From Candidatus Limivicinus faecipullorum (lineage in GTDB: Bacteria; Bacillota; Clostridia; Oscillospirales; Oscillospiraceae), in the NCBI GenBank assembly GCA_018711755.1, contig DVHY01000137.1:1-34633 (forward strand): DNA of 34,633 nucleotides, in the 5' to 3' direction. Position numbers and translations under genes: made by a program. The notes beneath the pieces are model-generated. The model saw only the letters and a program-made list of their open reading frames with translations. It did not search any database and was not told the DNA's origin. Shown here in pieces: positions 19,721 through 27,543 of the stretch; position 1 is the stretch's first letter, and each line of letters starts with the position of its first letter.

Positions 19721-20308
19721 TTATTCAAAAAGAACCTTGGCAAGCTGTGCGGACATGTCGCCCCGGCACAGCTCCACCAGCAGCTCTATGGTGCAGTTCG
19801 CTTCTATGCTGCCCCGCCTGAGTATCAGCCCGCCGGCAAAGTCGCCGGTGGAGTCGGAGAGGCTGAGCTTGCCGCCGGAGAGCAGGGCGTTTGCCCTGTC
19901 CACCACGGCCTGGCCCACGGCCTTCCGGTCCCGGGCGTTGAGGACTATCTCCTCGTCCCCGGTGGTGCTGGCCTGGACGGCCAGCTTAGCCAGCAGCTCC
20001 ACATACTTGTCCTGGGGGAGCTGGGAGAGCATACGGCATGCCGTATCAAAGCTCTTGGACACCATCTCCTGCTTCAGGGCCAGGATGGCCTTGCGGGCCT
20101 CCATCTGGTTGATGCGCTCCACGCTGTCTATGTTGTCCTGGCAGGTCTTGACGCCCTGGCGTATCTTCTCGGCGTAGCGCTCCTTGGCCTTGGCCTCGTA
20201 GCTCTTGCGGATCTCAGCGCACTGCAGCTCGGTTTGAGCAAGTATCGCGTCGGCCTGAGCCTTGGCATCAGCCTGGATGTGCGCGATTATTTTTTCAGTG
20301 CCTTTCAT
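19721..20308 (-). CDS. ntpE: V-type ATP synthase subunit E
   Basis: MKGTEKIIAHIQADAKAQADAILAQTELQCAEIRKSYEAKAKE coiled coil; operon position. Confidence 0.88.
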   Translation of the reverse strand: MKGTEKIIAHIQADAKAQADAILAQTELQCAEIRKSYEAKAKERYAEKIRQGVKTCQDNIDSVERINQMEARKAILALKQEMVSKSFDTACRMLSQLPQDKYVELLAKLAVQASTTGDEEIVLNARDRKAVGQAVVDRANALLSGGKLSLSDSTGDFAGGLILRRGSIEANCTIELLVELCRGDMSAQLAKVLFE

Positions 20309-20362
20309 TGACGATCTCCAATCTGATATAAATTTTTTGTGGCTGTGGCTGATCTGTCCCTA

Positions 20363-20863
<501 letters not shown>

Positions 20864-22813
20864 TTATTCTGCTACATTATAGTATTTGGTCTTTACTTCA
20901 AGGGGATTGAAGGGCCGCCCGCCGTCCTCATAGAACTTGCCGAAATACTCCAGGCACTGGAGTCGCAGGTCGTGGACATAGCAGCCCAGCAGGTTGAGGG
21001 CGAAGTTCAGGCTGTGGCCTATTATGAATATCACGGCAAAGAACACGATGTTGTTGGCTATGGCCCCTATGGTGTTGAACACCGTGGCTATTACGGAGCC
21101 GGCCAGCATCAGGGCCATGATACGGGAATAGGACAGAATGTCGCCGAACCAGCCGGTGGCGGTGTTGTACAAAGTGGTGAACACGCTCAGGACCTTGCCT
21201 ATGCCCTTGGCGCTGCGGCTGCCGCCGTAGAACACCATCAGCAGGCCAATAACGAGTACCACCGGCACACCGGAAATGTTGCCTATCCTCAGGGCAAAGA
21301 GGATTATGCCTATGAGCGTCACCCACAGGGCGCCCTCTTCCCATATTGCATCGGCCAGTTGTCCGCGCCTCGTCTTCTTCACAAAGTTTATTACCATACC
21401 GGTGTTCAGGTGGATAAGGCCCAAAACCATGGCTCCTATGAGTACCACCATGCTGTCGGTCATGGGGTTAAAGAGGGAAGGCAGCACGCCCCAGCCCTCG
21501 CCAAGGTTCAGTATTATACCTATCTGCTCCAGAGCATTTCCGAAGAAGCCGCCTGTTAGGGCGCCCATCACAAAGGTGGAGATGCCGCCGTAGAGCAGCA
21601 GCTGGCAGAAGGACAAGGTGCCTCTTCTGGGCTTTATCTTCTTCATCGCCACAAGAGCGGCAATGATCATCAGCAGGCCGTAGCCCATGTCCGCCATCAT
21701 CAGCCCGTAAAACAGGATGAAGAAGGGGGCCATCAGGGGGTTGGGGTCCAGACTGCCGTAGGCGGGCAGGCTGTACATGTCGGTGACCATGTTGAGGGCG
21801 TTGGTCAGCTTGTTGTTCTTGAGCTTAACGGGGACTTCCGGATACTCGCTCTCCTCCGGCGTCAGGGTCTCCCAGGCACAGCCGAAGTCCTCAAACACCT
21901 TTATGAGCTCCTCTTCCCTCTCCTCGGGGATCCAGCCCTCCATCACCACCGTGGACTCGGTGCCGTAGAGCTTTTCGTCCGCCTCCGCCAGGGCTATCTT
22001 GGTGCTGACCCGGTCGGCGGCCAGCTTCAGCTCGTCCCGGCGCACGGCCTCCGCCACGATGTTTTCCACGCAGCCGGCCTTCTCTTTCGCCAGCTCGTTC
22101 AGCTGCTGCCTGGCCTGGAGCATGCACTCCTTTGCCGTGCCGTTCATGCCGCTCATATTGCTGGCACTGAAGGCGAAGCCCCTCAGGCACTCCTGCATGG
22201 CGGGTATCTTCTCCCGCATGGCCACAAGCAGGACATATCTGTCCCTCTTGTCCTCGTTGATCTGGAAAAGCTCGCTCTCCTCGTCCACGGCCTCTATGGC
22301 CGCCTGCACCTGGTCCAGGGGTATCTTCCCGGAAATCGTTCCCATCAGGACCCCGCAGCGTTCCGTGCCCTCGGTGTTCAGGGGCAGATCCAGATCCAGC
22401 CAGGGCCGGAGGCTCTCGATGATGCTGCGCTGGCGGCTCTCCTCCGCGCTGATGCGCTTGATGCGGGAGTCGTAGCCCTCGATGGTCTCGGCAACGCGCA
22501 GAGCCCCGGTGAGCCCGGTGTCGTCCAGGAAGACCACATCCTCCAGCTCGGGCTTGGCCGAGAGCATCTTCTCCTTTTTGGGTGCGTATGTATTCAGCAG
22601 GGCAATGGCGTGATTGAGACTGGTATACTGGGATTTCAGAGTTGCCGTGTCGCTGCTCTCCCGGCTGACAAGGTTTTCCAGCTGGGATCCCTGTATCTCT
22701 CCCTCCAGCTCCGAAAACTCCACGCAGCCATGGCGGATAAGCTCTCGCAGCAGCTCGTCCTTCTTGGAACGGACAGCCATGAGCCGGAGCTTTTTCATTT
22801 TTAAAATGGCCAT
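20864..22813 (-). CDS. ntpI: V-type ATP synthase subunit I (a subunit)
   Basis: MAILKMKKLRLMAVRSKKDELLRELIRHGCVEF; MAPFFILFYGLMMADMGYGLLM; TATGWFGDILSYSRIMALMLAGSVIA. Confidence 0.96.
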   Translation of the reverse strand: MAILKMKKLRLMAVRSKKDELLRELIRHGCVEFSELEGEIQGSQLENLVSRESSDTATLKSQYTSLNHAIALLNTYAPKKEKMLSAKPELEDVVFLDDTGLTGALRVAETIEGYDSRIKRISAEESRQRSIIESLRPWLDLDLPLNTEGTERCGVLMGTISGKIPLDQVQAAIEAVDEESELFQINEDKRDRYVLLVAMREKIPAMQECLRGFAFSASNMSGMNGTAKECMLQARQQLNELAKEKAGCVENIVAEAVRRDELKLAADRVSTKIALAEADEKLYGTESTVVMEGWIPEEREEELIKVFEDFGCAWETLTPEESEYPEVPVKLKNNKLTNALNMVTDMYSLPAYGSLDPNPLMAPFFILFYGLMMADMGYGLLMIIAALVAMKKIKPRRGTLSFCQLLLYGGISTFVMGALTGGFFGNALEQIGIILNLGEGWGVLPSLFNPMTDSMVVLIGAMVLGLIHLNTGMVINFVKKTRRGQLADAIWEEGALWVTLIGIILFALRIGNISGVPVVLVIGLLMVFYGGSRSAKGIGKVLSVFTTLYNTATGWFGDILSYSRIMALMLAGSVIATVFNTIGAIANNIVFFAVIFIIGHSLNFALNLLGCYVHDLRLQCLEYFGKFYEDGGRPFNPLEVKTKYYNVAE

Positions 22814-23127
22814 CAGCTATTCACTATCCTTTCCACTACGAGACTTGCCGCCTGCTCCAGCCTTGCTTCGGCTCTGGAGCGCAGAGCAGCCTTTTGGTTT
22901 TCCAGCTCCCCCGCCAGTGCTCTGGCGCTGCCTTTGGCCTTCTCCTTGGCCTGGCGGTTGAGCTCGGCCAGTTCCTCCTCGGCCTTGGAGCCTGCGGCCT
23001 CTACTGCGGCCTTTCCCGCAGCCTCCGCATCGGAGAGCATCTGCTTTGACCGCCCTTCCGCCGCCGCAACAGCTGTCTTTGCCTCATGTTCGGCCCGGGC
23101 GATACTGCTTATCGCTTCAAATGACAT
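22813..23127 (-). CDS. ntpF: V-type ATPase peripheral-stalk subunit G/H (NtpF-like)
   Basis: Ala/Glu/Lys-rich coiled coil, first gene of the operon, TGATG overlap with ntpI; start MSFEAISSIARAEHEAK. Confidence 0.8.
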   Translation of the reverse strand: MSFEAISSIARAEHEAKTAVAAAEGRSKQMLSDAEAAGKAAVEAAGSKAEEELAELNRQAKEKAKGSARALAGELENQKAALRSRAEARLEQAASLVVERIVNS

Positions 23128-23212
23128 TGGCACACCCCCTCTTCGGTTGAGTTTGAGTATTAACAGGACAATATGCTCGGTTAAGCTGTTAACACTTGTT
23201 AACGGTATTTTA

Positions 23213-23378: not shown

Positions 23379-23407
23379 ATTATAATGTTTTGCAAGTAAA
23401 TTGTCAA
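23379..23407 (-). promoter_or_regulatory. Distal V-ATPase operon promoter, perfect sigma-A consensus
   Basis: Minus strand TTGACA (23402-23407)-17-TATAAT (23379-23384). Confidence 0.8.
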
Positions 23408-23552: not shown

Positions 23553-24812
23553 TCAGATATCTATTCTGCACTGTTTTCCCGTCTCCGCATTCACGTATAT
23601 GGTCAGGCTCTCACCCTGGCTGCCCACACAGCTGAACTCATAGCAGGGCAGCTCCCTGCCGCCCTCGCTCTCTATGGTCACCCGGCGCTGTCCCTGGCTG
23701 CTCACGTTCTCCGGCAGCTGCCCGGCGGCGGTCTCCTGGTCGGTATTCCAGTTCAGCTCCGCCTCTTCATAGCTGTAATCCTCCCCGTTATAGGAGTATA
23801 TGCTCCCGTCGTCCAGGGCCACGGATACCTTCACCCCGCTGCCCAGGCGCAGCGCCTCGTCCTGGACCTGGGCGAAATTGAAGGAGGCAATGGTGCCGCT
23901 GTCGCTGTAGCTCACCAGTGCCAGCTCCTCCAGCTCCAGGGAGGAGAGGAACTCCTCCGCCTTCTGCCGGGCCTTTTCGGTGCTGAGCCTGCCGCTGCTC
24001 ACCAGGCGGGAGCTGCCCATGGACTCCAGGCCCCGGCTGCTCACGCAGATGATCAGATCCCCCGCGCTGTAGCAGCGGCGGCCGTCGGTACCGGCATAGC
24101 TGTACTCCTCCTTCAGCTCCATGGGGTCCACCCCCGCCACCTGGGCAGCCAGCTCTTTGGCCTGCTCCTCACTGAGGTCCCCGGCCGCCTGCTCTTCTTT
24201 CAGGCCATACTTGCCGTCATATTCAAAACTGCTGCCGTCAAAGCCGCTCTCATAGTCCAGCAGGGCGGCGCTTATCTTCTGCCCCTCCGGCTCTCCCACG
24301 TTCTCCAGCCGCTCTTCCCGGCTGTCCAGCAGCACAAGCCCGTTGTTCAAATCCATCTGCAGCTGCCTCAGCAGGGCGGCAAAGTCCACCGCCTGCCCCG
24401 AAAGGCTCTCCAGCTGCTCCAGCTGCTCCTGGCTGAAGCCGTTCTCCGCCGCCGCCGGGGCCAGGCTGTAGGCATAGTCCCCCGCCAGGTTCAGAAAGGA
24501 TGCCAGGTTCTCCAGCTCCTCCGTGGCAAAGGGCAGGCTTAGCATGGCCGCCTCCGCCGCGGAGGCGGAGGCATAGACCTGGCCGCAGAGGCTGGAGCAC
24601 AAGCCCCCGTCGGTGGCATAGAGGCTCTTCTTCATGGCCGCGCCCATGGAGTCCACCGCCTTCACGGTGGTCTCAAAGGCGGCCCTGGAGCTGTAGGCAG
24701 CAGCCCGGCGGTAGTCCGTCAGGCGGCTGTAGCCTATGGCACAGCACAGGCTCAGCGCCACCAGAGCGGCGACAATATAGGTTCCAAAAATAAACTTGGC
24801 TTTTTGAGACAT
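23553..24812 (-). CDS. ypeB: Germination protein YpeB
   Basis: N-terminal TM followed by TDYRRAAAYSSRAAFETTVKAVDSMGAAMKKSLYATDGG; PepSY-like C-terminal repeats. Start at 24812 because the upstream GTG lies in the SD. Confidence 0.88.
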   Translation of the reverse strand: MSQKAKFIFGTYIVAALVALSLCCAIGYSRLTDYRRAAAYSSRAAFETTVKAVDSMGAAMKKSLYATDGGLCSSLCGQVYASASAAEAAMLSLPFATEELENLASFLNLAGDYAYSLAPAAAENGFSQEQLEQLESLSGQAVDFAALLRQLQMDLNNGLVLLDSREERLENVGEPEGQKISAALLDYESGFDGSSFEYDGKYGLKEEQAAGDLSEEQAKELAAQVAGVDPMELKEEYSYAGTDGRRCYSAGDLIICVSSRGLESMGSSRLVSSGRLSTEKARQKAEEFLSSLELEELALVSYSDSGTIASFNFAQVQDEALRLGSGVKVSVALDDGSIYSYNGEDYSYEEAELNWNTDQETAAGQLPENVSSQGQRRVTIESEGGRELPCYEFSCVGSQGESLTIYVNAETGKQCRIDI

Positions 24813-24813
24813 A

Positions 24814-24857
24814 AAAAACACCTCTTCTGGTCTATCATTTCCAAAAGAGGTGTTTTT
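24814..24857 (-). terminator. Terminator-like hairpin after gltX whose 3' arm contains the ypeB SD
   Basis: 17-nt arms aaaaacacctcttctgg / ccaaaagaggtgttttt (one G-U), 10-nt loop. On the minus strand the 3' arm AAGAGGTGTTTTT runs into TATG. Confidence 0.8.
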
Positions 24858-24891
24858 ATGAATTGCCGGGAAATTTGTCCCGGCCGGGCTT

Positions 24892-26376
24892 TTATTTCAG
24901 CTTTTCAAGGCCCAGGCCCAGGCGGCGGAGAGTCTCCTCCCGGCCCAGGATGCGGCAGATCTCCACAGCTCCGCCGGGGGTCACCGCCTTGCCGGCGGCG
25001 GCTATGCGCACCGGCCACATCACCACGGAGTTCTTCACTCCCAGCTCCTGGGCCAGCTTGAGCATGGCGTCCATGATGCTCTCGTCCTCCCAGCTCTCCA
25101 GAGCCCGGAAACGGGGTATCATCAGCTCCAGGGCCTGCTTTGCGCTCTCCAGGCTGGACTTGGACTTCTTGTGGACGAAGAGCTCCCTGTCATAGTCCGG
25201 CAGGCTGTCGAAGAAGTCCAGCTTCTCCGGGATATCCGTGAGCACTTCCGTGCGCTGCTGGAGCAGGGCGGCTATGGCTGCGGCGTCGTAAGCCGGGTCC
25301 TTCACCGTCTGGCGGATATAGGGCTCGGCGATCTTGGCGAAAGCCTCCGGGCTCATGGCGCGGATATACTCGCTGTTGAAGTATTTCAGCTTCTCAATGT
25401 CAAAGATCGCTGGGGACTTGGAAATGCCGGCTATGTCGAAGCAGTCCACCAGCTCCTGCATGGAGAATATCTCCTGCTCCGCCTGCTCCCCTCTGGGGCT
25501 CCAGCCCAGAAGGGTCACGTAGTTTATCACCGCGTCGGTGAGGAAGCCCTGGGCAATAAGGTCCTCATAGGAGGGGTCCCCGTGGCGCTTGGACATTTTG
25601 TTGTGGGCGTCCCGCATCACCGGGGAGCAGTGGACATACTTGGGTATCTCCCAGCCGAAGCCCTCATACAGCAGGTTATACTTGGGAGCGGAAGACAGAT
25701 ACTCGCTGCCTCTCACCACGTGGGTGATGCCCATAAGATGGTCGTCCACCACGTTTGCAAAGTTGTATGTGGGCAGGCCGTCCCGCTTCAAAAGCACCTG
25801 GTCGTCCAGGGTGGAGTTGTCCACGGTGATGTCCCCAAAGATCTCGTCGTGGAAGGTGGTGCTGCCCTCATGGGGGATGAGCTGGCGGATGACATATGGC
25901 TCCCCCGCCTCAGCCCTCCGGTCCGATTCCTCCCGGCTCAGGCTGCGGCAGGGGTCGTCTCCCCGGTCGAAGTCCCCGCTGTCCTCCTCGCTCTCGGTCT
26001 TCTCGCAGAAGCAGCGGTAGGCATGTCCCCGCTCCATGAGCAGCTGCGCATATTCCTTATAATAAGGCTGCCGCTCCGTCTGGATATAGGGGGCCACAGG
26101 GCCGCCCACATCCGGGCCCTCGTCGTGCTCCAGGTGGCACTGGGCCATGGTCTTGTATATGACCTCCACGGCGCCCTCCACCTGACGCTGCTGGTCGGTG
26201 TCCTCGATGCGCAGGATGAACTTGCCCCCGGCGTGGCGGGCGATGAGATAGGTGTACAGGGCGGTGCGCAGGTTCCCCACGTGCATATACCCGGTGGGAG
26301 AGGGGGCAAAACGGGTGCGGACCTCCCCATGGGGTATCTTATCCTCCATCTCTTTGAACCAGCTCATGTCTTTCAT
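24892..26376 (-). CDS. gltX: Glutamyl-tRNA synthetase
   Basis: VRTRFAPSPTGYMHVGNLRTALYTYLIAR; KMSKRHGD. Confidence 0.96.
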   Translation of the reverse strand: MKDMSWFKEMEDKIPHGEVRTRFAPSPTGYMHVGNLRTALYTYLIARHAGGKFILRIEDTDQQRQVEGAVEVIYKTMAQCHLEHDEGPDVGGPVAPYIQTERQPYYKEYAQLLMERGHAYRCFCEKTESEEDSGDFDRGDDPCRSLSREESDRRAEAGEPYVIRQLIPHEGSTTFHDEIFGDITVDNSTLDDQVLLKRDGLPTYNFANVVDDHLMGITHVVRGSEYLSSAPKYNLLYEGFGWEIPKYVHCSPVMRDAHNKMSKRHGDPSYEDLIAQGFLTDAVINYVTLLGWSPRGEQAEQEIFSMQELVDCFDIAGISKSPAIFDIEKLKYFNSEYIRAMSPEAFAKIAEPYIRQTVKDPAYDAAAIAALLQQRTEVLTDIPEKLDFFDSLPDYDRELFVHKKSKSSLESAKQALELMIPRFRALESWEDESIMDAMLKLAQELGVKNSVVMWPVRIAAAGKAVTPGGAVEICRILGREETLRRLGLGLEKLK

Positions 26377-26469: not shown

Positions 26470-26526
26470 ATGAAGACATGTGAAAAAACGCAATTTGAAT
26501 TGTTCTTTATGGATAGAGGTATGATT

Positions 26527-27543
26527 ATGGAAAACGCTGCGGTTTCTAAAAAAGTTATGCTCTCCGGCATACAGCCCTCCGGGGACCTGCATCTGGGCAA
26601 CTACCTGGGGGCCGTCAAGAACTGGGCTGCCCTGGCCGAAGAGTTCGACTGCTACTATTTCATGGCGGACCTGCACAGTATCACCGTGCGCCAGAATCCC
26701 GCCGAGCTGCGCCGCCGCTCCCTGGCTCAGCTGGCTCAGTACATTGCCTGCGGCCTGGACCCGGAAAAGAACACCCTGTTCATCCAGAGCCATGTCCACG
26801 AGCATGCGGAGCTGGGCTGGATACTCAACTGCTACACCATGTTCGGCGAACTCAGCCGCATGACCCAGTTCAAGGACAAGTGCGCCAAAAATGCCGACAA
26901 CATAAACGGCGGCCTCTTCACCTACCCCTCCCTCATGGCGGCGGACATTCTGCTGTACCAGGCGGACTATGTACCCGTGGGCGAGGACCAGAAGCAGCAC
27001 TGCGAGCTGACAAGAGATATCGCCATACGCTTCAACAATCTCTACGGTGAGACCTTCAAGGTCCCCGAGCCCTATATCCCCAAGGTGGGCGCCCGCATCA
27101 TGAGCCTGATGAACCCCACATCCAAGATGAGCAAGTCCGACCCCCAGGGCTGCGTCTTCCTGCTGGACAGCCCCGAGGAGATAGCCCGGAAGTTCAAGCG
27201 GGCCGTCACCGATTCCGACACGGAAAACTGCGTGCGCTACGACCCCAGCGAAAAGCCGGGAGTGGCAAACCTCATGAGCATCTACTCCTCCGTCACCGGC
27301 AGGAGCTTCGATGAGATAGAAAAGGAGTTCCAGGGCAAGGGCTACGGCGCCTTCAAGAGCGCAGTGGGCGAGGCCGTCATCGAGGCCCTGCGCCCGGTGC
27401 GGGAGGAGGCCCAGCGCATCATGGCCGACAAGGCCTACCTCCAGCAGGTCTACACCCAGGGAGCCCAGAAAGCCTCCTATACGGCCCGCAAGACCCTGCG
27501 CAAGGTGTACAAGCGGGTGGGCTTTGTGGAAAAGCCCTTTTGA
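26527..27543 (+). CDS. trpS: Tryptophanyl-tRNA synthetase
   Basis: MLSGIQPSGDLHLGNYLGAVKNW; MNPTSKMSKSDP. Start 26527 chosen from the AGAGGT SD and predicted TSS; the ORF-track start 26470 lies at the promoter. Confidence 0.95.
   Translation: MENAAVSKKVMLSGIQPSGDLHLGNYLGAVKNWAALAEEFDCYYFMADLHSITVRQNPAELRRRSLAQLAQYIACGLDPEKNTLFIQSHVHEHAELGWILNCYTMFGELSRMTQFKDKCAKNADNINGGLFTYPSLMAADILLYQADYVPVGEDQKQHCELTRDIAIRFNNLYGETFKVPEPYIPKVGARIMSLMNPTSKMSKSDPQGCVFLLDSPEEIARKFKRAVTDSDTENCVRYDPSEKPGVANLMSIYSSVTGRSFDEIEKEFQGKGYGAFKSAVGEAVIEALRPVREEAQRIMADKAYLQQVYTQGAQKASYTARKTLRKVYKRVGFVEKPF

Follow-up and report, generated by a model that had tools for sequence, protein, structure and literature searches.

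The window, the whole stretch of DNA that was analysed (34,633 nucleotides), carries on its minus strand gltX (24892-26376), which encodes glutamyl-tRNA synthetase (Pfam PF00749, 4.5e-91, and PF19269), and downstream of it ypeB (23553-24812), which encodes the germination protein YpeB (PF20769, 7e-20, and PF14620, 4.9e-17). Because the YpeB protein scores 134 bits (7.5e-39) against NCBIfam TIGR02889, under the cut-off of 304 bits, we call it, from its sequence, a diverged member of the family. On the plus strand, an ORF at 26470-27543 that looks like a tryptophanyl-tRNA synthetase (named from sequence alone) is divergent from gltX. In the long intergenic stretch 3' of ypeB lies a perfect sigma-A consensus, TTGACA-N17-TATAAT (23379-23407, minus strand), which precedes a cluster of V-type ATPase-looking genes (ORFs at 19721-23133, likewise named from sequence).

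A hairpin at positions 24814-24857 of the minus strand abuts the ypeB start codon (ATG, 24812-24810), with the T at 24813 directly before the ATG. It has 17 pairs, including one G-U, and a 10-nt loop. The 5' arm (AAAAACACCTCTTTTGG, 24857-24841) serves as the anti-Shine-Dalgarno (anti-SD) arm, the loop (AAATGATAGA) occupies 24840-24831, and the 3' arm (CCAGAAGAGGTGTTTTT, 24830-24814) holds the SD core GAGGTG of ypeB (24819-24824) and most of a U-run. The run of six T residues 3' of the SD (24813-24818) is both the terminator-like U-run and the spacer between the SD and the ATG. The sequence-only reading had described a 17-bp stem with one G-U, a 3' arm with the SD and the U-run, and a ypeB start at 24812, and exactly this structure is present.

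RNAfold gave the hairpin -24.8 kcal/mol (z = -5.24), and none of 200 dinucleotide shuffles reached equal stability. Among the 126 start codons of the window that have an SD before them, ypeB ranks fifth by the raw duplex energy of the 5' and 3' arms. Since the four starts that outrank it resemble GC-rich coding stretches, the composition-corrected z-score and the conservation described below are the stronger evidence. A simple terminator scan of the window did not pick up the ypeB hairpin because the scan permits loops of at most 8 nt, and an Rfam search with the hairpin returned only chance matches far under the gathering scores and thus no family.

The folding has a direct consequence for the predicted accessibility of the SD, which sequence, RNAfold and opening cost all place in the 3' arm of the stem, a stable one. 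In the window, the predicted cost of opening the ypeB SD is 17.1 kcal/mol on a read-through RNA vs 2.9 kcal/mol on an RNA from the predicted start described below. Over the ypeB loci of the genus, the predicted medians are 15.4 for the long RNA and 3.2 for the short RNA, whereas for the SASP genes, the standard forespore reference and control set, they are 3.7 and 3.5. The roughly 3 kcal/mol that remain at many ypeB loci on RNA from the predicted start are due to pairing with the coding region; the leader predicted for ypeB, at about 14 nt, is very short.

A putative promoter lies across the hairpin. Its -10 element, AATGATA (24833-24839, minus strand), lies entirely in the loop; its -35 element, TCATA (24857-24861), ends at the first base of the stem, and the 5' arm is the spacer between the two. 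The predicted start region (24824-24828, around 24826), placed 6-7 nt after the -10, would fall within the 3' arm, immediately 5' of the SD. A matrix derived from 20 SASP promoters of this genus, with the consensus GHATA-N17-AAAGATA (H = A, C or T), gives TCATA-N17-AATGATA a score of 12.4, and one of the SASP promoters (L095) also contains the 7-mer AATGATA. Compared with the layout of a GHATR-type -35, 17-18 nt and an xAnnhTA -10, the window -10 matches and the -35 matches at four of five positions, beginning with T where the consensus has G; several relatives (L009-L012) also have poor -35 elements. Because the SASP matrix alone is too narrow (AAAGATA), most ypeB -10 elements are not its top-scoring sites, and conservation of the loop columns was used instead. 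In the aligned hairpin loci, the xAnnhTA pattern is kept in the loop, with the first A in 51 of 51, the T in 48 of 51 (the other three are off by one base) and the last A in 49 of 51. Relatives that are free of the hairpin have the same promoter alone at a similar distance, for example GTATA-N17-AAAGCTA in L016 and GAATA-N17-AAAGCTA in L021. The sequence-only reading had suggested looking for a sigma-G/-F promoter within the 3' end of gltX; the motif instead straddles the hairpin itself. In C. difficile, sigma-F promoters have a conserved G upstream of the -10 (PMC3789822), and the GG three bases 5' of the window -10 is sigma-F-like, but these bases also pair in the stem, and we therefore describe the putative promoter as of forespore type (sigma-F/sigma-G class) only.

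We read the upstream regions of ypeB at 70 loci of the genus, in which ypeB is present in 74 of 101 genomes (public assemblies, mostly metagenome-assembled). The direction of the upstream gene was assigned by homology, as longest-ORF calling is unsuitable where long antisense ORFs are common. At 48 of the 70 loci gltX lies upstream of ypeB on the same strand. Where the upstream gene is co-directional, the hairpin was found at 51 of 58 loci; where it is divergent, at 0 of 12, and these 12 belong to two clades only; the Fisher value of 5e-9 thus overstates the independent evidence, the two clades being two associations rather than twelve. The divergent genes are of two kinds, a member of the Beta-lactamase2 family and a conserved gene that looks glycosyltransferase-like (a name given from sequence alone). 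The tree draws the divergent Beta-lactamase2 clade inside a clade that bears the hairpin (inner grouping supported at 84/58).

The hairpin could be a plain intrinsic terminator of gltX that abuts ypeB, with the SD and the -10-like loop incidental. Indeed, the window hairpin has the anatomy of such a terminator, a GC-containing stem followed at once by a U-run, and a T-run of at least 5 follows the hairpin at 40 of the 59 ypeB loci with an occluded SD. Six of the seven co-directional exceptions also speak for this explanation: L029 and L030 retain a hairpin with a U-run and a -10 in the loop while the SD lies outside, which suggests that termination alone can suffice there, and at L013, L015, L037 and L038 the SD hairpin is lost or weakened while a terminator-like hairpin of its own lies a short way upstream. 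The same six loci also agree with the lock proposed below. On the other hand, the hairpin tracks ypeB and not gltX, since it persists where genes for LUD-domain, FAD-binding or HAD proteins stand in place of gltX (L031/L032, L043/L044, L046), and it therefore belongs to ypeB. Several loci retain the SD stem with a weak or broken U-run (gggggaattatt in L036, gggggaatttt in L043/L044), and a plain terminator would not be expected to conserve xAnnhTA in its loop. The role of gltX terminator that the sequence-only reading had given the hairpin thus does not appear to be its primary one, and termination seems dispensable at the ClpP-like gene described below and in clades whose U-run is broken. We consider the plain terminator unlikely, although it is the best placed of the rival explanations.

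If pairing of the two arms matters for ypeB, the arms should change together, and they do. The hairpin is found at most ypeB loci of the genus, and the arm sequences vary (CACCTCTTTT/AAAAGAGGTG, CCCCCTTTTTGC/GCAAAAAGGGGG, CCCCTTTCAGG/CCTGAAAGGGG). Conservation of the stem in relatives had been set beforehand as a check that could refute the sequence-only reading; the stem is conserved, and in 43 distinct genus sequences, uncorrected for relatedness, both sides have changed in a compensatory manner at 9 of 15 pairs. In the same sequences, again uncorrected for relatedness, doubly changed cells number 54 vs 16.3 +/- 3.0 in shuffles, and 90% of stem cells are paired vs 81.5% in shuffles; sliding the partner column by 1-3 positions lowers pairing to 47-73% and destroys the signal. 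At pair 19-54, the SD side stays U while the other side is G (17) or A (16), giving 17 GU, 16 AU and 8 CG pairs, a pattern that reads as RNA-type wobble. The ypeB arms gave -21.0 with their own partners vs -13.9 +/- 0.46 when swapped between genomes, a difference of about 15 standard deviations with relatedness uncorrected. The SASP control gave -7.75 for own arms vs -7.90 +/- 0.47 for swapped arms, with no arm covariation. The compensatory changes and the comparison of own with swapped arms argue that the ypeB stem is under selection.

In wider samples, the gene order differs. In the class-level sample, ypeB lies behind sleB in an operon at 26 of 27 loci and complementarity was found in 1 of 26, with no excess; in the order-level sample, sleB is upstream in none and significant complementarity was found in 12 of 28. 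In another genus of the same family (L400, L402), the hairpin loop holds CATACTA. A covariance model of the element gave strong scores essentially for ypeB alone, and weaker matches together with a pattern search led to other genes. One is a ClpP-like gene (PF00574), which we take to be TepA/YmfB-like. It is present in most genomes of the genus, and in many of them its SD lies within a stem whose loop holds TAAACTA, CAAAATA, ACACTA or similar. The U-run is usually absent there, and a T-run of at least 5 occurs at just 12 of 44 occluded ClpP-like loci, which also argues against the plain terminator. Own arms of the ClpP-like gene gave -15.1 vs -11.7 +/- 0.32 when swapped. In the window's own genome the ClpP-like hairpin is weak and by itself not significant (p = 0.36; predicted opening cost 6.4 vs 2.1 kcal/mol).

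A second is a gene for a SleB-like hydrolase (PF07486), with GCGTATACT at the loop and own arms at -16.0 vs -13.0 +/- 0.54 when swapped; in the window's own genome its hairpin is moderate (11.6 vs 4.0 kcal/mol). In these hydrolase genes (L344-L373; L434, G000:C199), GCGTATACT sits at the top of the SD-hiding hairpin, and a conserved TGACA is found about 21 nt upstream of it, a spacing at odds with both sigma-A and the usual sigma-E/K layout. The promoter-in-hairpin arrangement was not found at the SASP control genes, and the part of the SpoVA upstream regions that was inspected had no comparable hairpin.

A survey of 1.2 Mb, partly biased because some stretches of G029, G075 and G077 had been picked for earlier hits, gave 66 SD hairpins vs 13 in shuffles among 42,560 candidate starts, many of the 66 preceding spurious ORFs. 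Side observations include a 59-aa ORF (MAKKKNRQKQ...) without a Pfam match that lies behind an SD hairpin with an AACACTA loop in two genomes (L165/L436 region; G084:C24:29018-29075 and G036:C88:4173-4232), and a YqzL-like small ORF (PF14006; L252, G075:C11:40497-40537, minus strand) with GATAATA in the loop of its SD hairpin. At L235 (G075:C1), a perfect inverted repeat (AATCCCCCCTGATGTAG/CTACATCAGGGGGGATT) hides the start of a transposase-looking ORF and recalls the protection of insertion sequences from outside transcripts.

Two further explanations of the hairpin have to be weighed. Quasi-palindromes beside the SD might be perfected by template switching and have no function, and the ClpP-like hairpins around the -10, which come and go among loci, would fit such a mutational artefact. 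However, the long-term covariation at ypeB, the centring of the hairpin on the -10 with the SD spanned, its tie to a co-directional context and its absence at SASP genes all speak against it, and we regard the artefact as very improbable. Slightly less credible still is a DNA palindrome bound by a regulatory protein with the RNA hairpin as by-product, as the stem is indeed near-palindromic and lies on a promoter, but the frequent one-sided G-U at pair 19-54 breaks DNA symmetry, the stem sequence varies freely among clades and genes, and the -10 in the loop is asymmetric.

We propose a promoter-in-hairpin lock on ypeB as the probable explanation of the element. A read-through RNA from the co-directional upstream gene would contain both arms, so that the hairpin would hide the SD, and the hairpin with its U-run would probably also end much of the read-through RNA. 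The forespore promoter would have its -35 at the base of the 5' arm and its -10 in the loop, with the arm itself as the spacer between them, and would start transcription within the 3' arm. An RNA from this promoter, without the 5' arm, would form no hairpin, would not be terminated there and would expose the SD near its 5' end. YpeB would then be made only while the forespore sigma factor is active, regardless of the upstream gene. The switch suggested by the sequence-only reading, in which read-through masks the SD and a start inside the loop or the 3' arm exposes it, agrees well with the anatomy and the comparative evidence (the -10 in the loop, the compensatory changes and the difference in opening cost); the start itself is a prediction.

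In such a lock, one element of 50 bp would serve as promoter, terminator and translational lock and would insulate a developmental gene from its neighbours. The natural contrast between co-directional and divergent upstream genes makes the read-through idea directly testable. Annotated terminator hairpins before spore genes may hold the promoter of the next gene, and deletions of the 5' arm in such constructs could give unintended vegetative expression. We are evenly divided on the broader proposal that a -10 in an SD-hiding loop is a general, repeatedly evolved way in the order of making developmental genes deaf to vegetative read-through, with forespore-type promoters (ypeB and the ClpP-like gene) and another promoter type (the SleB-like hydrolase with GCGTATACT).

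A literature search of open-licence papers found no earlier report of the ypeB hairpin. Related arrangements have been described elsewhere. At B. subtilis sigG (spoIIIG), a hairpin of at least 20 bp has been proposed to block translation of read-through from the spoIIG operon, and a transcript from the forespore promoter of the gene itself is unable to fold into it (Mearls et al. 2018, PMC5942855, citing earlier work). By anatomy, the ypeB hairpin resembles it as a putative lock against read-through with a putative forespore promoter of its own, but gene, lineage and upstream gene are different, and the ypeB hairpin has a terminator U-run, a -10 in the loop, covariation and a design common to other spore-type genes. 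The sigG ribosome-binding site also has a small 5-bp hairpin, which arises in the transcript of the gene itself and dampens expression constantly (PMC5942855); it likewise occludes the SD of a forespore gene, whereas the ypeB hairpin is predicted in the read-through RNA only. In phage T4, gene e and also soc, 49 and I-TevI have structures that sequester the SD and whose 5' strand contains a late promoter; the early read-through RNA hides the SD, and the late-promoter RNA without the 5' strand is translated (PMC3014915). The likeness of ypeB to gene e, with a predicted hiding of the SD on read-through RNA and a predicted own-promoter RNA without the 5' strand, is again one of anatomy; the T4 genes are phage genes with a gp55 late promoter, no terminator and no homology. 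Intrinsic (rho-independent) terminators share the stem and the U-run of the window hairpin, but at ypeB the loop holds a conserved, putative promoter -10, the 3' arm contains the SD of the next gene, and some homologues have no U-run. While the precedents of B. subtilis sigG and a few T4 genes are single cases, the comparisons made here point to a design that recurs among uncultured Oscillospiraceae. The principle is thus known from B. subtilis sigG and T4 gene e; what the ypeB case adds is a new gene and lineage, the combination with a terminator, covariation documented for the stem, and a design that recurs at several spore-type genes.
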